Part shown: positions 699-27,187 of the stretch, one piece after another | How the letters are laid out: each line of letters starts with the position of its first letter | Numbering within the stretch: the stretch's first letter is position 1 | Source: Clostridia bacterium | Lineage (GTDB): Bacteria > Bacillota > Clostridia > Oscillospirales > Acutalibacteraceae | NCBI GenBank assembly: GCA_017465505.1 | Contig: JAFTWB010000011.1 | Location: 1-39,778, forward strand | DNA: 39,778 bases | Direction of reading: 5' to 3' | Made by a program: the position numbers and the translations under genes | The notes under the pieces: generated by a model | Told to the model about the DNA's origin: nothing | Databases searched by the model: none | What the model saw: only the letters and a program-made list of their open reading frames with translations

Positions 699-945
699 TC
701 AAAAGGCGGAACTGCCCTGTCGTGGCGAGCGGTAGTGATATTCGCCTTTGGCGAGTGGTATTGGCTTTTGCCAGTGGTATTGCTTCGCAGTGGTATTGTC
801 CTTACGGACAGTTTTTGCGTTTAACCCCACCGTTGATGACTGGTCAAAGTTACATCAAACCTTTCCAAAGGTGGAGTTGCCCTGTCGTGGCTAACGACCG
901 GAACTGCCCTGTCGTGGCTAACGACCGGTTTACCTACCGTGGCTA
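699..945 (-). repeat. Mini-hairpin repeat, ACCACT-linker type (copy A1, inverted)
   Basis: This non-coding stretch belongs to the repeat family also seen at 2558, 15299, 16993 and 26809, here in the opposite orientation. Read on the minus strand it holds a module with GGAAAGGTTTGATG and CATCAACGGTGGGG, then short hairpins such as TCCGTAAGGA, TGCGAAGCA and GGCAAAAGCC, each joined by AATACCACT. It also has hairpins of the type GTCG-TTAGCCA-CGAC. A core of roughly 125 bp is nearly identical to the copy at 15299. ORFs called here are artefacts. Confidence 0.85.
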
Positions 946-953
946 ACGGCTGG

Positions 954-1610
954 TTATCTTCTGTAAATAAGGTGTGCAAAAACCGTGCTCAGGGCAATTA
1001 CCATCATTTCAATTACCGCAAGGAAAGCCACGTATTTTGCACTTACTCCTGCAAAGTCCGTAACAACAAGGGGATAAATAAACACCCACACCACCGCAAG
1101 AATACTGATTATTGCCACAAGCACCGTGCCCACTCTGATACGCCCGATTCGGCAGATAAGTCCTGCCACAAGGGCATTTGCAAGGACCAGCCCGTTGAGA
1201 AAAGCAAAGTTTGCAATTTCCTCTTCAAAAATATGAGAGGCAACTCCGCTAATCATAAGATAGCCGAAACCGCACTCCAGAGCGATTAAAAGGATAAAGC
1301 ACACAACTCTTTTAAGCTCTCGGAAAAATCTCCGTATGCTGCCAAAAAGTCCGAAAGCACCCATAACCAAGGCACCAAAGGCAACGTCGTTGGATTCGTC
1401 CACCTGAGGATGAGCCTTGCGGTACTCCTTCTCCTTCTGAAGCTCAAGCTTTTTCTGCTCGGTGTAATTAAGCTTTCTTTCGGGCTCTGCCTGAGCCTCT
1501 TTATGTACTGCCTTTTCACCGAAAAGCTCCGCCTCGGTGAAAGCAGTGTCGCAAAATTCGCAACGTCGTTTTTCAAGGTCCAGAAGACCTCCGCAATTAG
1601 GACAATTCAT
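954..1610 (-). CDS. Zinc-ribbon multipass membrane protein
   Basis: 218 residues. The N-terminus has a zinc ribbon with C3-x2-C6 and C17-x2-C20 (MNCPNCGG...CEFC). A charged linker of about 60 residues follows, then four or five hydrophobic segments from about residue 95 to the end. Zinc-ribbon membrane proteins of this type are common in clostridia and have no settled function. It starts two bases after the stop of the hydrolase gene, and its GGAGGAA ribosome site lies inside the last codons of that gene, so the two are probably translationally coupled. Its stop codon sits at the edge of repeat A1. I assign no specific role. Confidence 0.8.
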   Translation of the reverse strand: MNCPNCGGLLDLEKRRCEFCDTAFTEAELFGEKAVHKEAQAEPERKLNYTEQKKLELQKEKEYRKAHPQVDESNDVAFGALVMGAFGLFGSIRRFFRELKRVVCFILLIALECGFGYLMISGVASHIFEEEIANFAFLNGLVLANALVAGLICRIGRIRVGTVLVAIISILAVVWVFIYPLVVTDFAGVSAKYVAFLAVIEMMVIALSTVFAHLIYRR

Positions 1611-1612
1611 AT

Positions 1613-2500
1613 TTATTCCTCCGCAATTTTCCAGTACCAGGTGAAATCTTCCATAACCCAGTCGATAATGCCCTTGTGCCTTAAAGAGCTCAGGTGGCTT
1701 TTAACAGTTGAGGTTATCATAACAAGGCCCATAAGGTCAAGTTTCAAGCCGAAATTTCTGCAAAGATTTGCGGTAAGCTCCTCGGCAGTAAGAGGCTTTT
1801 CTCTAAGAATTTTAAGGATTTCTTCTCGGATTTCAAGAAGGTTTTTAATATTTTCCTCAGCAAGAGTGCTTATGTTTTCCGTCACCTCAGCGTGAGCAGG
1901 CACACAAAGCTTGCCGTCAAGCTCTTTGAGCTTTTCAAGGGTTTCAAGCTGGGTGTCGATGTCGTAAACATAGCAGATTTTCACCTTATCCAAGGTGTCC
2001 TTGCTGTTTACAACGTCAGCGATAAAGTACACATCGTCAGGAGTTTTTATGCCAATCATATGAGCGGTGTGACCGTAAAGAGGAAAAATCTCAGTACCCT
2101 TTGGCAGAGGCGCCTCAGCGATGTTATAAGTCTTGCAGGAAGGAGTATTCATAAACTTTTTGCGAAAATCCCTGCAAGGAAAACCGCCGTAAACAAGGGT
2201 AGCCTCCACATCCGAAAACTCAATGAGCACATCCTCCACCTCAGCGGTGTACGCCTTGCACCCTGTGGCCTCGCAGATGTATTTGTTACCCCCTGCGTGG
2301 TCAGTGTGAGAGTGGGTGTTGAGGATGAAATCAACCTCAAGTCCCATTTCCCCAAGAGTTTTAAGCACCCTTTTGGCGGATTTTTCGCTGATTCCCGTAT
2401 CAATAATAAAAACCCTTTTGTCGTCGATTTTATATACGCCGATTTTGGTGGGCATATCAAAATAAAATGTTCTGTCTGTAAGTTTAATTAAATCAAACAT
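1613..2500 (-). CDS. Metallo-beta-lactamase-fold hydrolase
   Basis: 295 residues, full length for the family. The metal-binding motif H63-x-H65-x-D67-H68 (THSHTDHAGG) is present, with later metal ligands suggested by GHTAH near residue 144 and PAHAE near 203. The C-terminal 70 residues look like a winged-helix region (LTAEELTANL, LRHKGIID), as in MBL-fold proteins with a C-terminal DNA- or substrate-binding lobe. Substrate unknown; glyoxalase II-like or other thioester/phosphodiester hydrolysis is possible. First gene of a two-gene operon with the zinc-ribbon membrane protein, with promoter at 2522-2550. Confidence 0.9.
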   Translation of the reverse strand: MFDLIKLTDRTFYFDMPTKIGVYKIDDKRVFIIDTGISEKSAKRVLKTLGEMGLEVDFILNTHSHTDHAGGNKYICEATGCKAYTAEVEDVLIEFSDVEATLVYGGFPCRDFRKKFMNTPSCKTYNIAEAPLPKGTEIFPLYGHTAHMIGIKTPDDVYFIADVVNSKDTLDKVKICYVYDIDTQLETLEKLKELDGKLCVPAHAEVTENISTLAEENIKNLLEIREEILKILREKPLTAEELTANLCRNFGLKLDLMGLVMITSTVKSHLSSLRHKGIIDWVMEDFTWYWKIAEE

Positions 2501-2521
2501 AAATTCATCTCCAACTAAACT

Positions 2522-2550
2522 ATTATACCAAGATTCAACGAAAAAATCAA
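2522..2550 (-). promoter_or_regulatory. Sigma-A promoter of the hydrolase operon
   Basis: Minus strand: -35 TTGATT (2545-2550), 17-bp spacer, -10 TATAAT (2522-2527). A GGAGATG ribosome site lies just before the ATG at 2500. Confidence 0.8.
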
Positions 2551-2557
2551 CGTACCC

Positions 2558-2712
2558 CTGCCGTTAGCCAGTCGTTAGCCACGACGGGGCAACTCCACCT
2601 TTGGAAAGGTTTGATGTAACTTTGACCAGTCATCAACGGTGGGGTTAAACGCAAAAACTGTCCGTAAGGACAATACCACTACCGTTAGCCACGGTGGGCA
2701 ATTCCGCCTTTT
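2558..2712 (+). repeat. Mini-hairpin repeat, ACCACT-linker type (copy A2)
   Basis: Contains GTCG-TTAGCCA-CGAC and ACCG-TTAGCCA-CGGT hairpins, the GGAAAGGTTTGATG/CATCAACGGTGGGG module, and TCCGTAAGGA followed by CAATACCACT. Two partial units stand head to tail. Nothing coding. Confidence 0.85.
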
Positions 2713-2771
2713 GAAAGGAAAGACGAAACTTTTAACTTTCATCAACGGCGGTATCAAAGGTAAAAAACTAT

Positions 2772-3018
2772 AATCGCAGGTGTAACCTGCCACCAAAACG
2801 TTTGCGTAGCAAACATATCGCACTGCTTGCAGTATATCGCATTTGCGTAAGCAAATATATCGAATTGACGAAGTCAATATATCGCTCCGACCATCGGTCG
2901 GCTGTGCCACCGAAACGTTTGCGTAGCAAACACATCATTTTGCGTCAGCAAAACATCATTAGCGAAAGCGACATCACATTGCAAAGCAATACATCACTGC
3001 AATGCCTCAGCATTGCAA
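2772..3018 (+). repeat. Mini-hairpin array, ATATCG and ACATCA linkers (array B)
   Basis: A run of about eleven unrelated short palindromes. The first part is joined by ATATCG: GTTTGcgtagCAAAC, ACTGCttGCAGT, ATTTGCgtaaGCAAAT, ATTGACgaaGTCAAT, CCGACcatcGGTCGG. The second part is joined by ACATCA(T/C): TTTGCgtcaGCAAA, GCgaaaGC, ATTGCaaaGCAAT, GCAATGCctcaGCATTGC. Linkers are constant and stems vary. Lies between two tandem minus-strand genes. Confidence 0.85.
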
Positions 3019-3087
3019 CAAAAGGGAATCGCCCCCGATTTCTCGGAGGCGAAAGTGTAAACAAGAATATTTAAAGGGTAGTTATTT

Positions 3088-6000
3088 TTAAACTTCTTCC
3101 CACTGATTTGTGGAGTTGTTATAAGCCTTGCCAAGCTGAGCAGCCATATCGTCTGTCTTGCAGTGGTCGCCGCCTGCGTTGAATACAACATTTGTATGAC
3201 CTGCAGGAAGCTGAAGCTTATAAAGTCCGTTACCTAAAGATTCCATAGCTGTGCCGGGCCAAACTGTACCATCGCCGCCGTCAGGCCAGGAATGGCAATG
3301 GATATTACCCCAGCCTGCGTTATCTTTGAAGTAAACGCAATCAGCAGAAACTGTAATATCGGAATTGTTATTGTTGTTGCCGCCGTTATTGGTGTAAGGC
3401 TGCCAACTGCCGTCCCAAATCATACCTGTACCCTGAATCTTAATGTCGTCTGTCTGGTCACCGTCACCGTTGAATACAACGTTGGTGTGACCCTCGGGGA
3501 GCTGAATACGGAAGATACCGTTTCCTAAGGACTCCATAGGAGTGCCGGGCCAAACTGTGCCGTCGCCGCCGTCAGGCCAGGAGTGACAGTTTACGCTGCT
3601 CCAGGTGGACTTGAGGTAGATGTAATTATCGGGCTCAGCAGGCTCAGTTACAGGAGGCTCTGTAACAGGAGGCTCAGTTACAGGAGGCTCAGTTACAACG
3701 GGCTGAGTTACGGGAGCCTGTGTAACAGGGGGCTGAGTCACAACAGGCTCTGTAACAGGAGCCTGTGTAGGCTGAACAGTTGTGGGAGCTTCTGTGGGCT
3801 CGGGCTCAACAGTAGGCTGAGTAATTGGTGCCTGTGTGGGCTTAACTGTGGGCTTGGGAGCCTCTGTGGGAGTAACCGCCTGAGTTGTGCCGGGAACAAC
3901 ATAGTACTGACCAACTGTGAAAATCTTGATAATATTTGCACAAAGCTTCTGGATAGTTGTTACGTCCTTTACGTTAACCTTAACGTCGCCGTTAACATCT
4001 GCAACGATAATCTGGATTGTTTCCAGAGTAATCATTTTTGCAAGAGCCTTCTGCATAACTGTTGCGTCCTTGATTGTAACCTTTGAGTTCTGGTCAAGGT
4101 CGCCGTACAGATATTTCTTGTCGGGAGTGATTGTGGGGTTTGTGGGCTTAATAACCTGTGTGGGAGTTGTAGGTGCAGGAGGAATAACGATAATGTCGTC
4201 GTCCTCTGAGGGCTCTGTCTTTACAGGAGCCTGTGTGGGCTTGGGAGCCTCTGTTGCCTGAGTAACAGGCTGAGTTACGGGAGGCTGTGTGGGCTTGGGA
4301 GCTTCTGTTGCCTGAGTAACGGGCTGAGTAACAGGGGGATTGGTTACAACAGGCTGTGTCACAACAGGCTGTGTGGGCAAAATGTCCTCGCCGTCATAGA
4401 TTTTTGTGTGCTCTTTCCACTCTTCGTTCACGCAAATCATTGCGTTGCCTGTGTACTGTAAGCCTTCCTCGGCAGGATACTGGTTGTTACCATTGTCAGA
4501 GAAGATAACCTGACAATTTTCAAAGCCAGCAGGAGGCTTGAGATACCAGATATTGTTGCCGATATTTTCCATTGTAAGGCCGGGCCACTCTGTCGCACCC
4601 TGACCGTTTTTGTAAACATAGCATTTTACGCTGCCCCAGTTTGTGGAAGAGTTGTCGTAGTAGATACCAGGGTCGGCTGCAACAGAGAGGTTGTACTCGT
4701 AGGTTACTGCCTCGCTTGTTTCCTTGCCGTTTGTTGCCTTTACTGTGATAGTAGTCTTTGTGCCTGCGGCTGTGCCCTTACCAACAGTGATTTTCTGGCC
4801 GTTTGTAAAGGACTGGAAAGCACCGCCGTTAATGGAGTACTGACCGCTTGTAGCATTTTCATATTTAAGAGTAACAGGGAATGTATCTGTTGTATAGTTG
4901 GTTGAGCCGGGCTCTGCGTAAGCAGAAGGACCCTGAACAATGGGAGCAGCATTTAAGATAACTGCAATACCGCTCTGACCAACCTGACCTGACATCTGAG
5001 AATTTGTAACATTCCATGTAGAACCTGAAACTAAATCCTTGTATGTGCCGGGCTTGGTTGTACCGCCTGCATTGGGAACAGTAACATTTCTGTCACTGCC
5101 TGAACCTAATACGATAGTTGCACCACTTTCACGGCAAACAACAGCAACGTTGTCAGCTGTTGTCATATATTCCTTTTCGCCGTCACAAGCATTCTTAAGC
5201 TGGTTAACTGCGGCTACTTCGGGCTTTTTGAAGTTTACGCTGCCCTTCTGGCCTGCCATAATGGAGTCTTTGTCCTTCTGATTGGGACGAGAGAAGTAAA
5301 GTGCAGAAGCACCATTCTGAGATGCTACAACTGCATATGCACGGTCGATTTTGTTCTGGTCGATGTGCTGAGAAGAGTCGTGTCTGCCGTCGGGGTTGTT
5401 GTTTGAATATGTATCGTGGCTTTCTGCCCAGTAAACAATCTTATTCTTTGCAACACCGCGGGAAGCGTAGTTACCTACAGAATTGCTGACCTGACCGTTT
5501 CTGAATGACATTCTTACGTCACCGCTGTAGCCGGAGTCAGTAACTGAGATATAATTTGAATATTCCTTCATAAGGCTCTCGGAAAGGCTTCCGTTATTTG
5601 CAACGGGATCATCAAGAATCTCACCATAGTGCCACATTCCTGAAACAGCACTTGTTACCTTAGGCCAGAACTGACAATTCTGCTCAGAGGGAACAGCGAT
5701 ATGCTTTGCAGCATCCCAACGGATACCGTCAACGCCGATTGAAGAAAGCTCCTTTACATAGTCAGAAACCTTCTGCTGAACAAAAGGATGCTCAGAATTA
5801 ATATCAGGCATACCGATTCCGCCCTGGTGAATCTGCCAACGGTTGCTGTAATCAATGCTTCCGCCATGACTATGCCAATACTGACCGTCCTTAAGCTCGT
5901 TCTGTATGTCACTGTGGTCACCTGCAAGGTGGTTTGCAACTACGTCGACAACTACCTTGATACCGTATTTTTCAGCCTCCTGACAAAGAGTCTGTAAATC

Positions 6001-6360
6001 GTTCTTTGAACCAAGAGAGTTGTTGCCAACATAGAAACCCTTAGGCTGATAAAGCCACCACCAGCAACCTGAATTTGCAGGCTGTGCAGGAGAGGTCTGA
6101 ACAGCGGTAAAGCCTGCTTCGGCAATACTCTTAAGCTCTGCCTTGATGTCATTATACTTCCAGTCAAAGCAATGAAGAATCGCACTGCCCTGAATGTTTT
6201 TCATTAAACCATAGTTTGCACCGTTCTCTGCAAGCTCTGTGTTTGCGGCTACCTCTGCTACCTCAACACTTGCTGCAGTTGCTGAAAAGCTAAGGCCGCA
6301 GAAGGTTGAGAGAATGGTCATTACAGCAAGCAAAAGGCTTAAAAATCTCTTCGTTTTCAT
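3088..6360 (-). CDS. Secreted GH13 alpha-amylase with starch-binding modules and internal dockerin
   Basis: 1090 residues from the ATG at 6360, chosen because GGGAGG precedes it and a longer frame would run into the promoter. Signal peptide 1-30. GH13 catalytic domain about 50-475: region I DVVANH 139-144, nucleophile D216 in GIRWDAAKH, acid/base E247 in GEIL, and D316 in ESHD; these cleave alpha-1,4-glucan. A CBM26-like starch-binding module lies at 566-655. Pro/Thr linkers (TQATEAPKPTQ) flank a type I dockerin at about 751-812 with two calcium loops (DLDQNSKVTIKD, DVNGDVKVNVKD). Two more CBM26-like modules at 911-990 and 1005-1090 share HSWPDGGDGTVWPGT. The dockerin implies docking on a cohesin scaffold, as in the R. 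bromii amylosome. A central rather than terminal dockerin is notable. Confidence 0.95.
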   Translation of the reverse strand: MKTKRFLSLLLAVMTILSTFCGLSFSATAASVEVAEVAANTELAENGANYGLMKNIQGSAILHCFDWKYNDIKAELKSIAEAGFTAVQTSPAQPANSGCWWWLYQPKGFYVGNNSLGSKNDLQTLCQEAEKYGIKVVVDVVANHLAGDHSDIQNELKDGQYWHSHGGSIDYSNRWQIHQGGIGMPDINSEHPFVQQKVSDYVKELSSIGVDGIRWDAAKHIAVPSEQNCQFWPKVTSAVSGMWHYGEILDDPVANNGSLSESLMKEYSNYISVTDSGYSGDVRMSFRNGQVSNSVGNYASRGVAKNKIVYWAESHDTYSNNNPDGRHDSSQHIDQNKIDRAYAVVASQNGASALYFSRPNQKDKDSIMAGQKGSVNFKKPEVAAVNQLKNACDGEKEYMTTADNVAVVCRESGATIVLGSGSDRNVTVPNAGGTTKPGTYKDLVSGSTWNVTNSQMSGQVGQSGIAVILNAAPIVQGPSAYAEPGSTNYTTDTFPVTLKYENATSGQYSINGGAFQSFTNGQKITVGKGTAAGTKTTITVKATNGKETSEAVTYEYNLSVAADPGIYYDNSSTNWGSVKCYVYKNGQGATEWPGLTMENIGNNIWYLKPPAGFENCQVIFSDNGNNQYPAEEGLQYTGNAMICVNEEWKEHTKIYDGEDILPTQPVVTQPVVTNPPVTQPVTQATEAPKPTQPPVTQPVTQATEAPKPTQAPVKTEPSEDDDIIVIPPAPTTPTQVIKPTNPTITPDKKYLYGDLDQNSKVTIKDATVMQKALAKMITLETIQIIVADVNGDVKVNVKDVTTIQKLCANIIKIFTVGQYYVVPGTTQAVTPTEAPKPTVKPTQAPITQPTVEPEPTEAPTTVQPTQAPVTEPVVTQPPVTQAPVTQPVVTEPPVTEPPVTEPPVTEPAEPDNYIYLKSTWSSVNCHSWPDGGDGTVWPGTPMESLGNGIFRIQLPEGHTNVVFNGDGDQTDDIKIQGTGMIWDGSWQPYTNNGGNNNNNSDITVSADCVYFKDNAGWGNIHCHSWPDGGDGTVWPGTAMESLGNGLYKLQLPAGHTNVVFNAGGDHCKTDDMAAQLGKAYNNSTNQWEEV

Positions 6361-6400
6361 TCTGTTTTCCTCCCTATATAATGTAAAAAAATCCAGCCTC

Positions 6401-6429
6401 ATTCTAACAAAAGAAATAGGTAAAATCAA
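6401..6429 (-). promoter_or_regulatory. Promoter of the amylase gene
   Basis: Minus strand: -35 TTGATT (6424-6429), 17-bp spacer, -10 TAGAAT (6401-6406). It overlaps the extended open frame and so excludes the longer start. Confidence 0.7.
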
Positions 6430-6486
6430 ATTAAAAACCCCGATTTTGCCCCTTAAAAAGCAACAAACTTTTCGGACAAGTTTTAG

Positions 6487-6526
6487 TAAAAAATAACAAA
6501 CCGACAGCCAAAAACAGCCGTCGGTT
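6487..6526 (-). terminator. Terminator after the S24/S26 peptidase gene
   Basis: Minus strand: AACCGAC (6520-6526) pairs with GTCGGTT (6499-6505) around a 14-nt loop, followed by TGTTATTTTTT. A second small hairpin, TGCCTA-TTAG-TAGGCA with TTTTTTG, stands at about 6615-6633 on the plus strand. The rest of 6530-6643 is AT-rich with no other signal. Confidence 0.5.
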
Positions 6527-6643
6527 ACCTTTTCAAATCCTATTTTTTATATAAGAGTTGCTTTTTTTATCCTCAAAAAAGTGAATTTTTGAAAAAATTT
6601 CATAAAATTATTTTTGCCTATTAGTAGGCATTTTTTGCTCTTT

Positions 6644-7117
6644 TTAAGGCTTTTTCTTACCTCGAATTATCCTCTTTATAGCAGTCTTCAGGTAATATTT
6701 TCCATTTCTTATCTTTCTTACCAGTTTGATAACAGGCTTTCTGAGATAAAAATTATCCACCCAGAAGCGCACATACCTCAGATATTTCTTGTCGTCAGCA
6801 GAAATATATTTCTCTTTTCGAAAAAAGCCTGTGACAACACCAATGACATTTTCGTCGGTAATGTCGTATTCTTTCTCAAAAAGGCCGTCACCGCAAATAA
6901 CATAGCCCTCGTCGTTAACCTCTATAACACGATGGACAACGTACCTGTCAAGCCTGTCCTTATAAAGAGGGATATCGTACTTTTTGAGCCTGCCTGACAC
7001 AGGATTTATGACCACGGAATCCTTGCCGTGGCGAATCATAGGCCACATAGAAACGCCCTTGGGATGAATAACAAAGTTACCCCTTGCCACGGCGTCCTCA
7101 ATTTTCGCCATTTTCAT
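6644..7117 (-). CDS. S24/S26-family peptidase-like protein (signal-peptidase fold)
   Basis: 157 residues. GVSMWPMI holds the likely nucleophile S23, and YVVHRV holds H62 where SipW-like and related enzymes carry the general base; GYVICGDG is the following conserved strand. There is no N-terminal membrane helix, unlike a true signal peptidase I, and the C-terminus is very basic (IKRIIRGKKKP). It may process a small set of peptides or be tethered through the basic tail. It lies 60 bp downstream of the thiN-like gene and may share its transcript. Substrate unknown; LexA-like self-cleavage without a DNA-binding domain is less likely. Confidence 0.75.
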   Translation of the reverse strand: MKMAKIEDAVARGNFVIHPKGVSMWPMIRHGKDSVVINPVSGRLKKYDIPLYKDRLDRYVVHRVIEVNDEGYVICGDGLFEKEYDITDENVIGVVTGFFRKEKYISADDKKYLRYVRFWVDNFYLRKPVIKLVRKIRNGKYYLKTAIKRIIRGKKKP

Positions 7118-7177
7118 TCAATCACTTCTTTGAAGCTATAATTTAGTAGTGTAACACATTATGCTTTGCATTACAAG

Positions 7178-7804
7178 TTACATTTTCTTCACTTTTACAA
7201 GGAGCAGACAGCCGTCTTCCACCCTTACCTCTGCTTTTTTACCCTTAAGGACTTCGTTGCTCACTCCGTACTGGTAATCGCAGGAAATCTCGGCATTTTC
7301 CAGAGGGTACTTTGCGTTTTTTATGCTTATACCTGTGGTTTTGCCGAAAATGTTAAGGAGGGAAAAATACGGGAAAGTACAGGGAATTTCTACGCTCTTA
7401 TTGCCCACTGCCTGCATTTCAGAGTAATCGTCTGCAATTAAAGCGGAAAAGCCCCTGTCAAAAAGCATTTTCAAAATAGAAACATTACCCAGAGTATGGT
7501 CAAGCCTCTGCCCTATTACACCCAGAAGCAGAAAATCTTCAAAGCCTCGCTTAATCGCCTCTTTTACGGCAAAAACCGTATCGGTGTCGTCCTTTTCCCG
7601 AGGCAAAACAATAGTTTCCACCTCAAGCTCAGGGTTAACTGAGGAGTCAAAATCTCCCACAATAAGAGAAGGCTCAGCACCAAGACAAGGTGCGTGTCTC
7701 AGACCACAGTCGCAGAAAATAAAGAAATCGTCATCTTTAAGATATTGCTTTGCGTTTTCATAATCAAGAATATCAGCTCCGCCGACAATAACACAACGTT
7801 TCAT
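7178..7804 (-). CDS. thiN: Thiamine pyrophosphokinase
   Basis: 208 residues, normal for the family. It transfers pyrophosphate from ATP to thiamine to make thiamine diphosphate, in the cytoplasm. Family motifs are visible: the start MKRCVIVGGAD, the metal/ATP segment IVGDFDS, EKDDTDT, GVIGQRLDHTLGN, and the thiamine-binding region near GVSNEV at the C-terminus. In many Firmicutes thiN follows rpe and rsgA; here it stands alone, with only the S24/S26 peptidase downstream. The upstream gap is filled by hairpin array C. Confidence 0.93.
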   Translation of the reverse strand: MKRCVIVGGADILDYENAKQYLKDDDFFIFCDCGLRHAPCLGAEPSLIVGDFDSSVNPELEVETIVLPREKDDTDTVFAVKEAIKRGFEDFLLLGVIGQRLDHTLGNVSILKMLFDRGFSALIADDYSEMQAVGNKSVEIPCTFPYFSLLNIFGKTTGISIKNAKYPLENAEISCDYQYGVSNEVLKGKKAEVRVEDGCLLLVKVKKM

Positions 7805-7829
7805 TTTATCACCAAATTATATTATAGCA

Positions 7830-8055
7830 CAAATGTATTTGCAACGCAAATACAATGAAGTATCTCTGCGAGATATGAAGTTTGTCTTGGGACAAATGAA
7901 ATTTCGCTTCTGCGAAATGAAGTATTTTCCATTGGAAAATATGTCGGTGGTATGCTGACGCATACTATTATACCATATTTGCACTGCAAATACTTCATAA
8001 CGAAGTTACTTCATACGCAAATGCGTACTTCATATCACTTGCAAGTGATATTTCA
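7830..8055. repeat. Mini-hairpin array, ATGAAGT/ACTTCAT linkers (array C)
   Basis: About ten short palindromes. Left half: GTATTTGCaacGCAAATAC, TATCTCtgcGAGATA, TTTGTCttggGACAAA, TTTCGCttctGCGAAA, TATTTTCCattGGAAAATA, joined by ATGAA(G/A)T. Centre: GTATGCtgacGCATAC. Right half: ATTTGCactGCAAAT, AACgaaGTT, ACGCAaatGCGT, ATCACTtgcAAGTGAT, joined by ACTTCAT. The linker flips strand at the centre, so the array is one large inverted repeat. It fills the gap between divergent thiN and the methylase gene. Confidence 0.85.
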
Positions 8056-8057
8056 TT

Positions 8058-8108
8058 AAACAAAAAAGCTCCCTTAGGGGAGACACTCCGTAAGGAAGTG
8101 TCTCCTTG
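8058..8108 (+). repeat. Left inverted element flanking the R-M cassette
   Basis: AAACAAAAAAGCTCCCTT is followed by a hairpin GGAGACACT/AGTGTCTCC. The same element occurs inverted at 11385-11431 on the other side of the restriction-modification genes. It may also serve as a terminator-like structure, since CCTTTTT follows. Confidence 0.7.
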
Positions 8109-8164
8109 GCCTTTTTACGAGTATTCATAACTGCCTTAAAAGTATTGCAAAAACATTAATGATA

Positions 8165-8193
8165 TTGACATCGTTCGCACAAAAGAGTATAAT
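8165..8193 (+). promoter_or_regulatory. Consensus promoter of the methylase gene
   Basis: TTGACA (8165-8170), 17-bp spacer, TATAAT (8188-8193); the ribosome site GAGGTG lies at 8213-8218. A strong promoter allows early methylation when the cassette enters a new host. Confidence 0.85.
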
Positions 8194-8224
8194 TATATCA
8201 TTAAGGATCCTGTGAGGTGTTATT

Positions 8225-10408: not shown

Positions 10409-10942
10409 ATCATAAAGTTCTTCATATGTAAGCCATTGGATAAAATGATTTTTCATATGATAATCAATGCTGTTGCGATTTAGATGGAATTGTCCTTCTC
10501 CCTCATTGCCTTTATGTTGCTTATCTGAGTATCCAAAACAAGAAAGAATTTCGTTAGAATGCATTTTAAAAATAGCTATACGATCAGCGAAAAACAAACC
10601 ATAGTATAGAACATCAAATTCAAATCGCTTTACTTGTTGAATATTACAATCGAAATCGTAATTATACATATCAGTGCTACATAAAGCGCGATTCCCAAGA
10701 TTAGCTTTCTTGCATTGATCGATAGAATTTGACCTGCTAATAACAGCTTCATTTGCTTTCATAACAGTAGAGAACTTTATTTCAATTCTCTGATGCCCTA
10801 CTTCATCATATCTGTCGTGAAATTGATTGTGAGATTTTTCAAAATTATATAGCGCTTCGATCATGAGTTCGGCAATTGTTCCAAACCTACGTGTGCGTAG
10901 AGCAAAAATTCCGTCTCTAAATTCTCTTATTTCATTTGTCAT
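10394..10942 (-). CDS. Putative type II restriction endonuclease
   Basis: 182 residues. A PD-(D/E)xK-like core is visible: E29 in the first helix (AELMIEAL), D43/D46, then E54-x-K56 in RIEIKFSTV, where K is the catalytic lysine. The rest has no known motif; restriction enzymes diverge fast, so context is the main evidence. It lies 3 bp after the controller gene on the same strand and meets the methylase gene tail to tail with a 15-bp overlap, a standard C-R/M layout. Expected to cut unmodified DNA at the site protected by the methylase. The nuclease call is inference from motif and position. Confidence 0.7.
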   Translation of the reverse strand: MTNEIREFRDGIFALRTRRFGTIAELMIEALYNFEKSHNQFHDRYDEVGHQRIEIKFSTVMKANEAVISRSNSIDQCKKANLGNRALCSTDMYNYDFDCNIQQVKRFEFDVLYYGLFFADRIAIFKMHSNEILSCFGYSDKQHKGNEGEGQFHLNRNSIDYHMKNHFIQWLTYEELYDLLDV

Positions 10943-10945
10943 TGC

Positions 10946-11155: not shown

Positions 11156-11195
11156 AGCTACGATCCCTCCCTATTACACATTTTAACTTTATGAA

Positions 11196-11206
11196 CACTA
11201 TAAGTC
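11196..11206 (-). promoter_or_regulatory. Candidate C-box overlapping the controller promoter
   Basis: On the minus strand GACTTATAGTG resembles the half-symmetric C-box pattern GACT-N3-AGTC. It lies about 40 bp before the C gene and overlaps the likely -35 region of a weak promoter (-10 near GTTAAAATG), as expected for autoregulation. Confidence 0.55.
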
Positions 11207-11283
11207 TACACACAATAAGTAACTGCGGAAATTAAAAACCACTAGCATCTTTATTCAGATTATCTGAGAAAGTGTCATAGTGG

Positions 11284-15298: not shown

Positions 15299-15450
15299 CA
15301 ACCGTTAGCCACGGTGGGCAGTTCCACCTTTGGAAAGGTTTGATGTAACTTTGACCAGTCATCAACGGTGGGGTTAAACGCAAAAACTGTCCGTAAGGAC
15401 AATACCACTGCGAAGCAATACCACTGGCAAAAGCCAATACCACTCGCCAC
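15299..15450 (+). repeat. Mini-hairpin repeat, ACCACT-linker type (copy A3)
   Basis: ACCG-TTAGCCA-CGGT hairpin, GGAAAGGTTTGATG/CATCAACGGTGGGG module, then TCCGTAAGGA, TGCGAAGCA and GGCAAAAGCC hairpins joined by AATACCACT. Nearly identical to copy A1 but in opposite orientation. The rest of 15176-15298 shows no recognisable signal. Confidence 0.85.
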
Positions 15451-15460
15451 GTCTGGACAA

Positions 15461-15489: not shown

Positions 15490-15495
15490 ATAAAA

Positions 15496-16908: not shown

Positions 16909-16931
16909 AAGCAACTCCTTTCGTTGCTTTT

Positions 16932-16960
16932 ATTATAATTCAGCCTGCAAAATTCATCAA
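16932..16960 (-). promoter_or_regulatory. Promoter of the membrane XRE regulator
   Basis: Minus strand: -35 TTGATG (16955-16960), 17-bp spacer, -10 TATAAT (16932-16937). Confidence 0.75.
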
Positions 16961-16963
16961 GCA

Positions 16964-16974
16964 CAAGTTACTTG
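16964..16974. promoter_or_regulatory. Possible operator of the XRE regulator
   Basis: Perfect palindrome CAAGT-T-ACTTG three bases upstream of the -35 box, with further CAAG/CTTG half-sites on both sides (TCAAGCAC at 16957 and 16980). Autoregulation is an inference. Confidence 0.4.
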
Positions 16975-16992
16975 ATTTTGTCAAGCACCGCT

Positions 16993-17196
16993 TGCAACCG
17001 CTCGCCGCGGTGGGCAGTTCCGCCTTTTGGCAGGTTTAATCTGACTTTTAACTACATCAACGGCTGGTCAAAGGTAAAAAAACTATAATCGCAGGCAAAG
17101 CCTGCCACCACAATGTTTGTGTTTACACAAACACATCATTGCGTAGCAACATCATCAGCCGTGCGACATCATTTTGCAACGCAAAACATCATTAAA
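16993..17196 (+). repeat. Composite mini-hairpin repeat (partial A type plus ACATCA-linker array)
   Basis: Starts with a diverged A-type unit whose leading hairpin is ACCGC-TCGCC-GCGGT, then a shared joining segment AACTATAATCGCAGG, also found at 2766. An array follows: GCAGGcaaaGCCTGC, GTTTGTGTttACACAAAC, TTGCgtaGCAA, GCCgtGC, TTTGCaacGCAAA, joined by ACATCA or variants. Same order of parts as 2690-3018. Confidence 0.8.
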
Positions 17197-17198
17197 AC

Positions 17199-17229
17199 AA
17201 AAAAACGGACACCGCAAATGCGATGTCCG
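17199..17229 (-). terminator. Terminator of rpoBC
   Basis: Minus strand: CGGACA (17229-17224) pairs with TGTCCG (17211-17206), inner CGC/GCG, followed by TTTTTTTG just after the rpoC stop. Confidence 0.85.
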
Positions 17230-17243
17230 AAATTTTTGTTTTA

Positions 17244-20200: not shown

Positions 20201-20789
20201 CCTCAAGCTCAGCCTTAAGCTCAGCTGAAAGCTCATCAAGGTCGATTTCCTTAAGAAGGTCACGGATAGCCTCAGCACCCATAGCTGCCTTGAAGTCGTC
20301 CTCGTACTTCTCACGCATATCACTGTACTCACGCTCGGTGAGGAACTGCATTTTCATAAGGTCACGGCAGTCGCCGGGATCTGTAACGATATACTGAGCA
20401 AAGTAGAGAACCTTCTCAAGCATTCTGGGAGAAATATCTAAGATAAGGGAAATTCTTGAGGGAATACCCTTGAAGTACCAGATGTGGGATACAGGGGCAG
20501 CAAGCTCAATGTGACCCATTCTCTCACGTCTTACCTTTGCACGTGTAACCTCAACACCGCAACGGTCACAAACCTTGCCCTTGAAGCGGATTCTCTTGTA
20601 CTTACCGCAGTGGCACTCCCAGTCCTTTGTAGGTCCGAAAATACGCTCGCAGAAAAGACCGTCACGCTCAGGCTTTAAGGTACGGTAGTTGATGGTTTCG
20701 GGCTTTTTAACCTCGCCGTGTGACCAAGCCCTGATTTGCTCAGGAGAGGCCAAGCCGATTTTTATAGAATCAAAAACAGTATTATCCAT
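17244..20789 (-). CDS. rpoC: DNA-directed RNA polymerase subunit beta'
   Basis: 1181 residues, full length for a Firmicute. First zinc ribbon C59-x-C61...C74-x2-C77; the absolutely conserved NADFDGDQ at 447-454 carries the three catalytic aspartates that hold the active-site magnesium. A second zinc cluster lies near residue 870 ([11 protein letters not shown]). It forms the RNA polymerase core with beta, alpha2 and omega. It starts 14 bp after the rpoB stop, with AAGGAGG in the gap. The C-terminal tail is short (QAPTAPTE). Nothing is missing. It is not followed by rpsL-rpsG-fusA-tuf here. Confidence 0.99.
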
Positions 20790-20803
20790 TAGCTTTTACC
20801 TCC

Positions 20804-23800
20804 TTAAAATTCGTCACTGCCGTGGTCGTCGTAAAAATCAAAGTCGTCGGAGTCATCAATAAGTGAGCTCTCGTCGAACATATTGCCTTCTTCGCCTTCT
20901 TCGTCAATCATAAAGCCTTCCATATCGGAAGTCATAACGTCGTCGCCGTCGAAGTCAACATCATTTGCAGGTACTAAATCCTCGTCCTCGTCAAACTTCT
21001 GCTTAAGGTCGATTTCCTCGCCATCTCTGTCAAGAACACGAACATCAAGAGAAAGGGACTGAAGCTCTTTAATAAGAACCTTGAAGGACTCGGGAATACC
21101 GGGCATAGGAATGTTCTGACCCTTAACAATAGCCTCGTAAGTCTTAACACGACCAACAACGTCGTCAGACTTAACAGTCAGAATTTCCTGAAGTGTATAA
21201 GCAGCACCGTAAGCTTCCAGTGCCCAAACTTCCATTTCACCGAAACGCTGGCCGCCGAACTGAGCCTTACCGCCCAGAGGCTGCTGTGTAACGAGAGAAT
21301 AGGGGCCTGTGCTTCGTGCGTGAATCTTATCGTCAACAAGATGATGGAGCTTGAGGTAGTACATATAACCAACAGTTACAGGGTTATCGAAGTAATCACC
21401 TGTTCTGCCGTCCTTAAGCCAGGTCTTGCAATCCTTTGTGATACCGTTCTGTCTTAAGCACTCACCAAAGTCAATGCCTACAACCTGACTCTTATCGGGA
21501 TACTCGCCTCGCTCGCTTCTTGCTCGCATTTCGTCGTAAGCGTCGAAGATATCCTGCTCGTGAGCACCGTCAAATACAGGAGTCATAACCTTAATGCCGA
21601 GAGCCTTTGCAGCATAGCCAAGGTGAACCTCAAGCACCTGACCGATGTTCATACGGGAAGGAACGCCCAGAGGGTTAAGAACAATGTCAAGAGGAGTACC
21701 GTCGGGAAGGAAGGGCATATCCTCAACAGGAAGAATACGGGAAACAACACCCTTGTTACCGTGACGACCTGCCATCTTATCGCCCACACTGATTTTTCTC
21801 TTCTGAGCAAGGTAAACTCTTACTACCTTGTTAACGCCGGGCTTAAGCTCATCACGGCTGTCCTCACGGGTAAACACCTTAACGTCAACAACGATACCGC
21901 ACTCGCCGTGGGGAACTCTGAGGGAAGTATCTCTTACCTCTCTTGCCTTCTCACCGAAGATTGCTCGAAGGAGTCTTTCCTCGGCAGTAAGCTCGGTTTC
22001 ACCCTTGGGAGTAACCTTACCAACTAAGATGTCGTCTGCGTGAACCTCAGCACCGATGTGGATAATACCGTCCTCATCAAGGTCTTTGAGCATATCCTCA
22101 CCAACATTGGGGATGTCACGGGTAATTTCCTCAGCACCAAGCTTTGTATCTCTGGCTTCGGTTTCGTACTCTTCAATATGAATAGATGTGTAAACATCAT
22201 CTCTAACAATTTTTTCGGAAATAAGAACAGCGTCCTCGTAGTTATAACCTTCCCAGGTCATAAAGCCGATGAGAGCGTTCTTACCAAGGGAAATCTCGCC
22301 GTCCTTTGTAGCAGGGCCATCAGCAAGAACCTCGCCCTTTACAACTCTCTGGCCACGGGTAACAACAGGAATCTGGTTGATACAGGTACCCTGATTGGAG
22401 CGTAAGAACTTAATAACCTTGTAATCCTTAATAAGACCGGAGTCGTACTGAACACGGATGGTTTCAGCGTCAGCGCTCATAACTACGCCGTCTTCCTCAG
22501 CAAGAATACAAACGCCTGAGTCTGTACCTGCCTTGTACTCCATACCTGTGCCGACAAAGGGGCTCTGGGTAACCATAAGGGGAACAGCCTGACGCTGCAT
22601 GTTAGCACCCATAAGAGCTCGGTTTGCGTCGTCGTTCTCAAGGAAGGGAATCATAGATGTAGCAACAGAGATAACCATTCTTGGTGAAACGTCCATATAG
22701 TCGAACTTCTTAACGTCAAGCTCAACGAACTCATCTCTGTGACGGCCAACAGCACGGGCTGTTGTGAAGTGACCCTCATCATCAAGAGGAGTATTAGCCT
22801 GAGCTACATAGAACTCATCCTCCTGATCAGCTGTCATATATACAACCTCGTCAGTAACTCTGCCTGCCTGCTTGTCGATTTTTCTGTAAGCGGCCTCAAT
22901 AAAACCGTACTCGTTAATCTGAGAGAAAGTAGCAAGGTAAGAGATAAGACCGATGTTAGGACCTTCAGGAGTTTCGATAGGACACATTCTGCCGTAGTGG
23001 CTGTAGTGAACGTCTCGAACCTCGAAGCCTGCACGATCTCTGGAGAGACCGCCGGGACCAAGAGCAGAAAGTCTTCTCTTATGAGTAAGCTCTGCAAGGG
23101 GGTTTGTCTGGTCCATAAACTGAGAAAGAGGGGATGAACCGAAGAACTCCTTGATAGCAGCAGTTACGGGTCTGATATTTATAAGTGTGTTGGGAGCAAG
23201 TGACTCAACATCCTGTGCCTGAAGAGTCATTCTCTCGCGGATAACACGCTCAAGACGGCTAAAGCCTATTCTGAACTGGTTCTGTAAAAGCTCGCCTACG
23301 CAACGGATACGACGGTTACCAAGGTGGTCGATGTCATCTGTTGTGCCAACGTGCTCTGCAAGGTTGTTCATATAGTTGATGGAAGCAAAGATATCGTCCA
23401 AGATAATGTGATTGGGCACAAGCTCTGCTGCTCTTGCCTTAATCATTTCCTTAAGCTCTGCCTCGTTCTCGGCTGCGTCTAAAATCTCGCAAAGTACAGG
23501 GAAGTAAACCTTCTCCTTGATACCGCACTCAGCGTCTGCGTCAAAGTTAACATAGCAAGCGATGTCTACCATATTGTTGGAGATAATCTTAATCTCCTTA
23601 CCCTCAACAGAAACAAAAGCCTCTCTTACACCTGCGTTTTCAATTACCATAGCCTTTGCTCTGGAAACTGTTTCGCCACGGTTTGCGAGCACTTCGCCTG
23701 TTCTGGGGTCAGCAATGGGAGCTGAGAGCACCTGATTTGCAAGTCTTTGAGAAATACCAAGCTTTTTGTTATACTTGTAACGGCCGACTCTGGACATATC

Positions 23801-24601
23801 GTAACGTCTGGGGTCGAAGAAAAGGCCGTTTAAATGTGCCTGAGCACTTTCAACTGTGGGAGGCTCGGAAGGTCTTAATTTGCGGTAAACCTCGATTAAG
23901 CCTGTTTCCACGCTGTCGGTGGTGTCCTTCTCAAGAGTTGCCTTGATACGGTCATCTTCACCGAAATATTCTAAAATCTCGGCATTTGTGCCAAGACCTA
24001 ATGCACGCAAAAATACTGTAATGGGAATCTTGCGGTTTTTATCAATACGAACATAGAAAACATTGTTTACGTCGTTTTCATATTCAAGCCAGGCACCACG
24101 GTTAGGAATAACTGTGGAAGAGAAAAGCTCAAAGCCTGTCTTGTCGTGGTCCATCTTGTAGTAAACACCGGGAGAACGAACAAGCTGAGAAACAATAACT
24201 CTCTCTGCACCGTTGATAACAAAAGTACCGCTGTCTGTCATAAGGGGGAAATCACCCATAAAGACGTTGGATTCTTTGATTTCGCCTGTTTCTTTATTCA
24301 GGAGTCGTGCTGTAACTCTCAGTGCTGCGGAATAAGTTGCGTCCCTTTCCTTGCACTCGATTACACTGTAATTGGGATGGTCTACGTCCAGAGTGTAGTC
24401 GATAAAATCGAGAATAAGGTTACCTGAGTAATCTGTAATCTCCGATACATCTCTGAATACCTCTTTCAGTCCCTCGTCGAGGAACCACTGGTAAGACTTC
24501 TTCTGAACTTCGATGAGGTTAGGCATCTGGATAACTTCATCAATATTAGCGAAGCTTACTCTCTCGCTGTTGCCGAGCTTAACGGGCTTAGCGTTAATCA
24601 T
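20804..24601 (-). CDS. rpoB: DNA-directed RNA polymerase subunit beta
   Basis: 1265 residues from the ATG at 24601 ([10 protein letters not shown]), preceded by AAGGAGTGA; the longer open frame adds 26 residues unlike any beta subunit. It shows the rifampicin-pocket region ([17 protein letters not shown], then [14 protein letters not shown]), with the residues at the E. coli D516, H526 and S531 positions unchanged, as in sensitive enzymes. [11 protein letters not shown] and the C-terminal region with [19 protein letters not shown] are intact. The very end is acidic ([11 protein letters not shown]). Neither rplJ nor rplL lies upstream, which is less usual. It has its own promoter and a leader of about 190 nt. 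Confidence 0.98.
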
Positions 24602-24788
24602 TAGGCATATCACTCCTTTTTGAAATTCTAAGTTGCTCCACCGCAAAAGGGGCAACCAAAGGTAAAAGTGCGGTAACAAAAAACTTCCATAAATTTACCA
24701 CTTGACAAGCGGAGATTTATGTGATATATTTCTCAGTTCACGATTTTGTGAAATCTGAAAAGGGGTAAATCCCCCCATAATGTTACAT
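24602..24788 (-). promoter_or_regulatory. Long structured leader of rpoBC
   Basis: About 187 nt between the promoter and the rpoB start. Read on the minus strand it has a GGGG-ATTTA-CCCC hairpin, then TTTTCAGATTTCAC pairing with GTGAACTGAGAAA around AAAATC (one bulge), then GTTGC/GCAAC close to the ribosome site. No terminator is obvious. It may set translation or attenuation of rpoB; the role is inferred. Confidence 0.45.
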
Positions 24789-24794
24789 CATAGC

Positions 24795-24823
24795 ATTATA
24801 GGAGAAAAAACCTGCAAAGTCAA
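24795..24823 (-). promoter_or_regulatory. Promoter of rpoBC
   Basis: Minus strand: -35 TTGACT (24818-24823), 17-bp spacer, -10 TATAAT (24795-24800). The stretch 24830-25015 beyond it shows only a small GGTGTCA/TGACACACC hairpin near 24970. Confidence 0.8.
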
Positions 24824-25017
24824 GGGTTTTTTCTCATTTTTTCTGAAATTTTTTGTCTTTAATTCTAATACGCAATCATTTTTTAAAATCACTTGTTCTC
24901 AGTAATTCAAGAAACACCCGACGCAGTGTATTGTTTTTGGCTCGCTTTTCCCATTCCCTGCCACTTTTTGTGGTGTCAACTTCTGACACACCCTCAATAT
25001 ATAGTGCCCCCAGGGCA

Positions 25018-25200
25018 ATATTTGCGTAGCAAATACTTCATAATACTTTACTTCATACACATTTTGTGTACTTCATATTCCCCTAAGGAATACTTCATTT
25101 AAAAAGGGTTAATGAAATATCGCCCTTGTCCATATGAAATACACCCGTGTATTAAGTATTGCAACGCAATATAAAGTATTTTCCGTCGGAAAATATATTT
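25018..25200. repeat. Mini-hairpin array, ACTTCAT/ATGAA linkers (array D)
   Basis: Left half joined by ACTTCAT: ATTTGCgtaGCAAAT, ACACAttttGTGT, ATTCCcctaaGGAAT. Right half with ATGAA or TAAAG joins: ATACACccgTGTAT, TATTGCaacGCAATA, TATTTTCCgtcGGAAAATA. As in array C the linker flips strand at the middle. The TATTTTCC/GGAAAATA stem also occurs in array C with a different loop. Confidence 0.8.
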
Positions 25201-25204
25201 CCCC

Positions 25205-25230
25205 TGAACCAACCCCACACATAAATCGTA
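25205..25230 (+). promoter_or_regulatory. ECF-type promoter of the sigma/anti-sigma pair
   Basis: TGAACC (25205-25210), 16-bp spacer, CGTA (25227-25230), close to the sigma-W-type pattern TGAAAC-N16-CGTA. It lies 35 bp before the sigma gene, so the sigma factor probably drives its own operon. Confidence 0.6.
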
Positions 25231-25265
25231 TATATAGTGAAAGCTTTCAGAAAGGAGGTTTTGCC

Positions 25266-25757
25266 GTGAACAAAATCTCAGAATACATAAACCTTTACGG
25301 CAGGGACTTAAGCAGACTCTGCACCTCTCTCACAAACACCCGAGATGACGCACAGGACCTTTACCAAGCCACTTGGGAAAAAGCAATCCGCAAAATTTCA
25401 AAATACGATAGCTCAAAGCCTTTTGATAAATGGCTCTTTGCAATCTGCGTCAACACCTTCAAGGATATGGTAAAATCCCCTTTTCGCAGAAAAATCCTGC
25501 AATTTGACAAAACCGAGGAGCTGGAGCGTACACTTAACTCCATCTCAGACACCGAAATCTCCCGTGACGAATTTTTAAGCCTGCACTGTGCTATCAAAAA
25601 GCTGACCGTAGAAAAACGTCAGGTACTTGCCCTTTACTACTTCAAGGACTATTCCTTAAAGGAAGTAGCCCGGATTTTAAATATCCCCGAGGGCACGGTA
25701 AAATCACGCCTCAGCAGTGCAAGGCTGGACTTAAGAAAGGAGCTTGAAAATGAGTAA
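25266..25757 (+). CDS. ECF RNA polymerase sigma factor (first locus)
   Basis: 163 residues from the GTG at 25266, seven bases after AAAGGAGG; the upstream extension of the frame runs through array D and the promoter and is not coding. Sigma-70 region 2 covers about 8-75 (RDDAQDLYQATWEKA...KPFDKWLFAICVNTFKD). Region 4 covers about 105-158 (LTVEKRQVLALYYFKDYSLKEVA, EGTVKSRLSSARLDLR). Group IV sigma factor that redirects RNA polymerase in response to envelope signals. The next gene overlaps it by 8 bp, as is usual for an anti-sigma partner. Confidence 0.92.
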   Translation: MNKISEYINLYGRDLSRLCTSLTNTRDDAQDLYQATWEKAIRKISKYDSSKPFDKWLFAICVNTFKDMVKSPFRRKILQFDKTEELERTLNSISDTEISRDEFLSLHCAIKKLTVEKRQVLALYYFKDYSLKEVARILNIPEGTVKSRLSSARLDLRKELENE

Positions 25758-26808
25758 CCTCAGCGACGAAAAACTCGACAAAATGCTTATAGCTTACTGC
25801 ACCAGAGAAGAAGACACCTTTACCTATAAAAAACCGAAAAAATTCAGGCACACTGCCCTTATCGCCGCCTGTCTTGTCCTTGTGATGTTGGCAGGAATCA
25901 TCTTTGTCCCTGCAATCTTTGGCGACAGAGAGGTGGACTTTATCATCGTTGCCAACGCACAGCCTCTCAGTGAAGGCGGCTTTGCCTCGGCTGACGAAAT
26001 CACCCCCGACTTTTTTGTGGACATTGAAAACACCTGCGGCAATTTAGTGTCCTTTGACCTTGACGAGGTGCTTTATGAGGACGCAAAGCCTTACAATTAC
26101 GTTCAGAAATACGCCTTTCTCTCCCTTGTGACCAACCTGAACATCAACGTTAAAGGCGAAGACATCAAAACCGTCACCTACAAATTCAGCAAGGGTGCTT
26201 TCTGCCCCACCAATTACTCAGCTTACGGAGGCGACCCCGATATTGAAGAAAAAGTTTACAGAACAATCTTCTTTGGCTACGATTTGGCGAGGACAGAATT
26301 TACCTACGACTACGAAAAAATGCCTCTGATTCTTCTGGGCTACTCCCCTGTTTATACAGAAGGTGCAACCTATGAGGGAGAAACCCTTTACTTTTCCTCT
26401 CCTCTTGAAGTAGCACAAAGTCACCACGGCTTCGGTTGCACCGAAAGCTATGTTTACTCCACAAATGAGCAGGAGCTTATAGAAGAATACGGCTGGGCAA
26501 GAGTAACAAACCACGGAGTCCATTGCTCCGCTCCATCGGTAGTTACCGAAGAAGAAAAAGCAGTATTAAGAGAATACGCCAAGGCTGACGATATGATTGG
26601 CTTTTTCAATTACCAGAACCTGATTTTCAAACGCCTTATCGACGGCACAACAATTGACATAACCGTCACTAACAAATGGGGCAACTCCGCCACAAAAACC
26701 CTTGAGCTTATTTATACCCCCAAGGAAGTAACCGACGTGGAGTTTTACACTGACCGCCAGATTGACACCCTATCCAACGGCACAATCAGTGCCAGGTTAA
26801 CGGGTTAA
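25750..26808 (+). CDS. Single-pass membrane anti-sigma-like protein
   Basis: 352 residues from the ATG at 25750 (AAAGGAG seven bases upstream), overlapping the sigma stop codon. A short cytoplasmic N-terminus of about 33 residues (LSDEKLDKMLIAYCTREED) is followed by one membrane helix at about 34-54 and a large outer domain with no motif I recognise. The topology and position fit an anti-sigma factor that holds the upstream sigma factor at the membrane. No zinc motif. The outer domain would be the sensor. The gene ends in a hairpin repeat of the TTAGCCA type. Confidence 0.75.
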   Translation: MSNLSDEKLDKMLIAYCTREEDTFTYKKPKKFRHTALIAACLVLVMLAGIIFVPAIFGDREVDFIIVANAQPLSEGGFASADEITPDFFVDIENTCGNLVSFDLDEVLYEDAKPYNYVQKYAFLSLVTNLNINVKGEDIKTVTYKFSKGAFCPTNYSAYGGDPDIEEKVYRTIFFGYDLARTEFTYDYEKMPLILLGYSPVYTEGATYEGETLYFSSPLEVAQSHHGFGCTESYVYSTNEQELIEEYGWARVTNHGVHCSAPSVVTEEEKAVLREYAKADDMIGFFNYQNLIFKRLIDGTTIDITVTNKWGNSATKTLELIYTPKEVTDVEFYTDRQIDTLSNGTISARLTG

Positions 26809-27187
26809 CCGCAGGTTAGCCACCTGAGGGCAGTTCCGCCTTTTGAAAGGTTTGATGTAACTTTAAACTTTCATCAACGGCGGGGTTAAAAGTAAAACTG
26901 TCCGTAAGGACAATACCACTACCGTTTGCCACGGTGGGCAATTCCGCCTTTTGAAAGGTTTGATGTAACTTTAAACTTTCATCGACGGCGGGATTAAAAG
27001 TAAAACTGTCCGTAAGGACAATACCACTACCGTTTGCCACGGTGGGGCAATTCCGCCTTTTGAAGGGTTTGATGTAACTTTAAACTTTCATCAACGGCGG
27101 GGTTAAACGCAAAAACTGTCCGAAGGACAATACCACTGCGTAGCAATACCACTGCGAAGCAATACCACTCGGCAACGCCGAATAACA
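26809..27187 (+). repeat. Three tandem A-type units plus hairpin array (copy A5)
   Basis: Three head-to-tail units of about 108-109 bp starting at 26819, 26928 and 27036. Each has a GCCA-loop hairpin (CAGG-TTAGCCA-CCTG, then ACCG-TTTGCCA-CGGT twice), TTCCGCCTTTTGAA, GGTTTGATGTAAC, CATCAACGGCGGGG and TCCGTAAGGACAATACCACT. The last is followed by TGCGTAGCA, TGCGAAGCA and CGGCAACGCCG hairpins joined by ATACCACT. ORFs on the minus strand here are repeat translations, not proteins. Confidence 0.88.

Follow-up and report, generated by a model that had tools for sequence, protein, structure and literature searches.

Hairpin arrays between the genes of a Clostridia genome as probable gene-less copies of mobile elements with an intervening sequence protein gene

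The intergenic gaps of a 39,778-nucleotide stretch from a Clostridia bacterium of the Acutalibacteraceae (GenBank assembly GCA_017465505.1, contig JAFTWB010000011.1, positions 1 to 39,778; hereafter the window) hold runs of short perfect hairpins, in which the stems vary and the words that join them are constant. What are these arrays, and how did they reach so many gaps? An earlier note on this DNA knew no named element of such design, and indeed no Rfam family matches the arrays. We conclude, with a probability of about 0.85, that they are copies of mobile elements from which the gene is missing; in its complete form such an element encodes a 23S rRNA intervening sequence protein (IVP, PF05635). 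As judged from the sequences, the IVP probably also recognises the linker word, and we consider it likely that both statements hold together. In the literature, mostly outside subscription papers, we found no recognisable description of hairpin arrays tied to IVP.

IVP genes and linker words

The earlier note had proposed to look for a gene family that co-occurs with the arrays. Across 147 genomes of the order, IVP genes occur in 44 of the 45 array-rich genomes (at least five array matches) and in 31 of the 102 others, a count without correction for kinship. A PF05635 profile search matched 40 of 59 genomes and gave three genes in the window's own genome (G000; 1.9 Mb, 84% complete), whose products bear the NCBIfam name four helix bundle protein (TIGR02436). 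Directly upstream of each lies an array, of AATACCACT type at C5:24547, with ACATCA linkers at C1:56443 and with ACTTCAT linkers at C11:143129; these are three of the window's four linkers. The window itself yielded no IVP gene, all own-genome PF05635 matches being on contigs C5, C1 and C11. ATATCG arrays adjoin IVP genes in other genomes (L175, L098, L088), and in two of these relatives, L088 and L098, the gene is flanked by inverted array arms.

The linker word follows the IVP subfamily. We read 68 IVP loci, out of about a hundred matches listed, plus 65 held-out loci among the further matches listed, all from other genomes; two of the former with internal stops (L131, L164) were dropped, and L236, for which a wrong frame had been taken, was kept among the 65 and left out of the tree. 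A script assigned a hairpin-array label to 75 of the 131 loci (34 of 66 in the first set, 41 of 65 held out). Linker patterns were chosen on the first 66 loci and then fixed. When the class of each held-out locus was predicted from its nearest training protein, 30 of the 41 hairpin-labelled loci were assigned correctly (shuffled mean 6.9, largest 16), and 47 of all 65 (shuffled mean 16.4, largest 31; 10,000 shuffles each). Nine of the 11 misses had an unlabelled neighbour and two (L198, L225) a conflicting one.

The same tie is apparent from a tree of 130 IVPs, which has few columns and many open forks: its 69 firmly labelled rows need 10 linker changes, compared with 31-40 in 300 shuffles. 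Sixty-four of these rows fall within one 81-member clade (SH-aLRT 91), nested among IVPs flanked by runs of a seven-nucleotide word (heptamer). The remaining labelled rows (L140, L178, L180, L184, L215) have the appearance of heptamer runs or of an adjacent array and were kept in the tree count. With these five, L157 and L225 set aside, the information shared between IVP columns and linker class was on average highest in residues 1-28. Kinship confounds this signal, and a recognition helix at these residues is not claimed.

A phmmer search gave one clear relative of solved structure, 2rld, with five chains, and S23p of X. campestris is described as a homopentamer ring (in a passage of PMC4990558). 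The IVP is termed functionally uncharacterised in a passage of PMC11270868. The tie between subfamily and linker offers a direct binding test for the whole IVP family.

The layout recalls repetitive extragenic palindromic (REP) sequences and bacterial interspersed mosaic elements (BIMEs), in which a palindrome stands beside a short constant word, inverted pairs surround a gene and many copies lack the gene (passages of PMC2817692 and PMC3733652). The arrays might thus be repeats of this kind, mobilised by a RAYT or by some other IS200/IS605 (Y1) transposase with specificity for a hairpin beside a fixed word. Y1_Tnp has two matches in the window's genome and occurs in 24 of 45 array-rich genomes and 28 of 102 others (p 0.005). 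The association is weak, however: Y1_Tnp is missing from 21 of the 45 array-rich genomes, including G156, which with 80 matches is the richest. The gene adjacent to the arrays is that of the IVP, and the linker follows the IVP. We therefore regard this explanation as improbable. As in REP/RAYT systems, the repeat type goes with a partner protein, here the IVP in place of the RAYT; unlike in those systems, the partner is not a Y1 transposase, the stems vary from hairpin to hairpin, and in place of GTAG or CGTC tags there are the linkers ATATCG, AATACCACT, ACATCA, ACTTCAT and others.

A similar question arises for reverse transcriptases, since PF05635 resembles Avd of the diversity-generating retroelements, a related protein family (a passage of PMC10053308), and the arrays could be retro-copied. 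The association expected for this was not seen. RVT_1 has no match in the window's genome; it is present in 11 of the 45 array-rich genomes and in 36 of the 102 others, and 17 of the 45, the richest included, have neither RVT_1 nor Y1_Tnp, which makes retro-copying very improbable.

A scan of named genomes extends the range of the arrays. Among the matches listed (118 matches in 116 stretches), two or more of the three spacers fold in 86, whereas 32 have fewer than two hairpin spacers, some of the latter being clearly other repeats; seven stretches hold eight IVP frames. These matches come mainly from metagenome-assembled genomes (rumen and gut Clostridia, Oscillospiraceae, Ruminococcus). Akkermansia is also among them, and its two loci are hairpin arrays too. 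An IVP was found in five of six genomes behind such loci.

Arrays of the window and their copies

The earlier note had listed eight places with perfect hairpins and constant words, all of which were read and confirmed:

709..975, minus strand: array with AATACCACT linkers (754-762, 773-781, 789-797, minus strand) and head repeat
2558..2771, plus strand: head module with AATACCACT linker at its end (2672-2680)
2772..2905, plus strand: ATATCG array of six hairpins, linkers at 2815, 2834, 2857 and 2879; member of a ten-copy genome family
2906..3020, plus strand: ACATCA array, linkers at 2932, 2953, 2971 and 2991
7826..8059, no strand: mirrored array of ATGAAGT arm, centre and ACTTCAT arm; same linker as the own-genome IVP gene C11:143129
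15299..15452, plus strand: head module and AATACCACT array (15401, 15417, 15436)
16993..17196, plus strand: head module and ACATCA array, just past the 3' end of rpoC
25005..25200, no strand: two-armed array, ACTTCAT arm (25035-25098) followed by a reverse-linker arm
26809..27190, plus strand: three tandem units of about 108 bp and a AATACCACT run with five linkers

The arrays cover 2082 bp, within limits set by the analyst, and contain 53 perfect hairpins with a stem of at least 5 and a loop of 2-5, compared with a mean of 9.5 and a maximum of 16 in 30 dinucleotide shuffles; for stems of at least 6 the counts are 29 and 2.4. The excess over shuffled sequence thus bears out the earlier note, as does the constancy of the linkers: AATACCACT occurs 12 times in the window where 0.21 copies are expected. 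The arrays at 2558-3020 and 16993-17196 are composites of modules with differing linkers. Those at 7826-8059 and about 25005-25200 consist of two oppositely oriented arms, which explains why the linker also appears as its complement. No array lies in a gene, as judged from the open reading frame list and the sequence. At gathering score Rfam reported one tRNA only in the window, and positions 2690-3060 had no match in plasmid or phage collections (E 1e-5).

The unit of about 108 bp (CCGTTTGCCACGG...GTCCGTAAGGAC), present in three tandem copies at 26809-27130, also heads the other AATACCACT arrays. At 27233-27270 there is a short degenerate run (TTATGAATACTGAATAATGAACAATT), with no gene, that resembles the heptamer runs around other IVP genes.

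Both the arrays and CRISPR alternate constant and variable parts regularly. As the earlier note had claimed, the design is the opposite one: CRISPR has constant repeats and non-palindromic spacers, whereas here the variable parts are palindromic and the constant parts are linkers of 5-9 nt. A figure legend in PMC10910872 on proteins linked to CRISPR mentions the 23S rRNA IVP. The reading of the IVP as part of an element may bear on that listing, and a repeat finder might take such arrays for CRISPR.

The genome holds many dispersed copies. G000 holds 30 spaced AATACCACT pairs, 27 spaced ATATCG triples and 33 AYWTCAC triples, and the reversed control patterns gave 0 each; with listed places merged by eye, there are at least 38 separate array loci. 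The array beyond rpoC is present in G000 and was not seen in 15 other genomes of the genus that were read by eye (33 had a match). The ATATCG array at 2772 has nine relatives in G000, with stems that are the same or pairwise changed and that keep their order. The stems, held in the earlier note to be unrelated, are therefore variable between hairpins and alike, in the same order, between these copies. The arrays were dispersed as whole units, their full forms adjoin an IVP gene and the word goes with the IVP subfamily; for these reasons the word looks like a recognition word and not like a start for palindrome synthesis.

This bears on the copying process proposed in the earlier note, which would make palindromes at a fixed word. 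In its strict form, this would be snap-back synthesis, with every hairpin formed afresh at the linker. The C(GNA)G loops fold compactly, and whole hairpins have been swapped between otherwise similar arrays, as such a process could bring about. Stem order is kept between copies, however, and the Akkermansia locus L402 carries the same three stems mirrored around its IVP gene, and we rate snap-back synthesis as hardly probable. Some support for the proposal comes from stems that change on both sides or by replacement of the whole hairpin, with rare unpaired intermediates, although selection on pairing might have the same effect; nothing shows that hairpins are made singly at a fixed word.

Loops, stems and strand

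Among 306 distinct stem-loop units, 194 have triloops, for which the leading sequences on the linker strand are GAA (58), AAA (31) and GCA (30). Loops of the form G(N)A or G(NN)A were counted 142 times on the linker strand and 3 times on the other, and the closing pair is C-G in 262 units and G-C in 13. DNA minihairpins with a GNA loop, e.g., d(GCGAAGC), are described as extraordinarily stable (a passage of PMC5713398, citing Hirao 1994). The bias was found in arms whose linker has the direction of the IVP gene (39 of 91 units, 1 opposite) as well as in those with the contrary direction (34 of 60 units, none opposite). Because it occurs in arms of both directions, transcription does not set the bias, which points, indirectly, to single-stranded DNA of the linker strand.

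The loops also bear on whether the arrays act as RNA, i.e., as leaders or 3' ends bound by the IVP or by RNase III in the manner of the 23S rRNA intervening sequence (IVS), and owe their duplication to an effect on transcripts. The IVP is known from IVSs whose stem is cut by RNase III (a passage of PMC4990558), many arrays lie upstream of an IVP gene or after terminators and tRNA genes, the stems covary, and 27 of 63 tetraloops are of GNRA type. On the other hand, triloops prevail (194 of 306), and in both arms it is the linker strand that carries the favoured loops, so that any one transcript would have one arm with unfavoured loops. A role as RNA is thus unlikely, less so than the alternatives discussed above.

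Stems remain paired as they change. In eight copies of the ten-member ATATCG family (two with another head were left out), all 224 pair cells are paired; nine cells in four pairs changed on both sides and one cell on one side. When arrays are alike at two of three hairpins and differ at the third, the difference is in the loop alone (37 cases), one pair (1), two pairs (6), more pairs (6) or the stem length (15), in a comparison that requires at least 4 perfect pairs per hairpin and therefore undercounts decayed ones. Only 20 mismatches occur among 2349 pairs in 413 folded units. The rewriting of several stem bases at once with few intermediates fits template switching between hairpin arms (described in a passage of PMC8794818), although the numbers are low, and much the same pattern could come from selection on pairing. 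The right ends of L408 and L409 coincide in position, with a perfect hairpin in one and an imperfect hairpin in the other, which suggests one stem-rewriting event.

Elements, insertion sites and relatives

In many elements the parts come in this order: terminator-like hairpin, first hairpin, three or so reverse-linker hairpins, the 3' strand of the first hairpin again, three or so forward-linker hairpins and the IVP gene (L153, L158, L164, L172, L175). In L088, L098, L161, L174 and the Akkermansia locus L402 the arms flank the gene instead, and in L402 three stems are repeated in mirror image on both sides. With the 99th percentile of 357 control pairs as the limit, 23 of 63 IVP loci had flanks of higher inverted similarity and 6 of 63 had flanks of higher direct similarity, five of 68 loci having been lost to short or masked flanks; 11 minus-strand loci were left unturned, with little effect, since the comparison set one flank against the other's reverse complement.

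The 3' strand of the first hairpin was found again at the array centre in L101, L175, L158 and L135. Its 5' strand consequently has two possible partners, as in a switch. Elements adjoin tRNA or tmRNA genes and terminators in L153, L158, L164, L172, L144, L394 and others; ARAGORN confirmed a nearby tRNA (12) or tmRNA (1) gene in 13 loci, which had been picked because a tRNA seemed near. Around deeper-branch IVPs outside the hairpin clade (L155, L115, L145, L180, L215 and others) there are inverted heptamer runs without hairpins.

Movement is also indicated by a gap of Akkermansia genomes, bordered by genes that we take to be TM2-like and DJ-1/PfpI-like. The site is filled in six species, in either orientation, and empty in two. 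We read 14 loci. Six are filled with an IVP gene and hairpin arrays, the gene being forward in L404, L407, L408 and L409 and reversed in L405 and L410; two (L411, L412) are empty and have a terminator-like hairpin only; one (L417) has the neighbour gene but no IVP; and five without that neighbour are uninformative. In L404, L407 and L410 the outer flanks on both sides correspond to the arms of the hairpin seen at the empty site, an arrangement that would result if the element occupied the hairpin tip. Furthermore, L402 and L398 share flanks of 88% identity around an element that is inverted and 79% identical between the two; it either flipped or entered twice.

Several observations weigh against the view that the arrays are copies of IVP elements whose linker the protein recognises. 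Fifty-six of the 131 IVP loci lack a hairpin label, one array-rich genome (G098) has no IVP, and the genome-level association ignores kinship. The linker classes were drawn by the analyst after the first set had been read, L198 and L225 contradict the prediction, and L157 has a linker foreign to its clade. G000 has ATATCG arrays, yet no ATATCG-class IVP was found in its 84% complete assembly, so that, going by this assembly, these arrays are orphans. Both flanks match the empty-site hairpin in only three of the six filled cases, L408 and L409 fitting in part, and this site belongs to another phylum than the window's organism. Finally, the wobble count, 8 G.T against 5 A.C, shows no strand preference.

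For the movement of IVP elements we consider a route through single-stranded DNA, which is possible but tentative. The IVP ring would bind the linker words on a linker strand that has become single-stranded and formed minihairpins, e.g., at a replication fork. Host replication or repair would then copy the folded strand to new places, perhaps hairpin tips such as those of terminators, and template switching between arms would keep stems perfect while their sequence drifts. Most likely the elements are selfish, without host function.

Among the closest known systems is the 23S rRNA IVS. Shared features are the IVP/S23p gene, in complete members only, and terminal inverted repeats (the 23 of 63 loci above), and one IVS has tandem heptamers beside its frame (a passage of PMC4990558). 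The IVS sits in a helix of the host RNA (same source), to be compared with the hairpin-tip site in Akkermansia. Unlike the IVS, the window arrays are intergenic, without a gene, built of hairpins and linkers and present at 38 or more places in one genome; no seat within a 23S rRNA gene was found in the window, where Rfam gives only the tRNA. A role of the IVS frame in mobility is proposed and not shown in PMC4990558, which calls the role of the IVS unclear. The simplest account is that the IVP element is a relative of the 23S rRNA IVS in ancestry and a parallel of REP/RAYT in logic.

More speculatively, these would be members of a class of mobile elements without a transposase of their own, in which a ring-forming four-helix-bundle protein recognises a short lineage-specific word that punctuates single-stranded DNA minihairpins. 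Together with many gene-less followers they would enter at hairpin tips during host replication and have their stems rewritten whole by template switching; the 23S rRNA IVS would be a special case, inserted in a hairpin of rRNA. If the arrays are indeed copies of IVP elements, they add a partnership like that of REP and RAYT which needs neither a Y1 transposase nor a reverse transcriptase, a set of repeats abundant in the intergenic DNA of gut Clostridia is accounted for, and the origin and persistence of perfect hairpins can be studied in a natural system.

Cyanobacterial small dispersed repeats and heptamers (STRR) offer a further comparison. The LIMP palindromes of Lobosphaera mitochondria are likewise intergenic and dispersed; they have repeated constant stems and an invariant loop (a passage of PMC4524435), whereas the window arrays have variable stems and constant linkers. 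Another type of IVP element is present in Akkermansia at L397, with the hairpins ACGCGCC and CGCCCGC, longer T-rich spacers and several copies.

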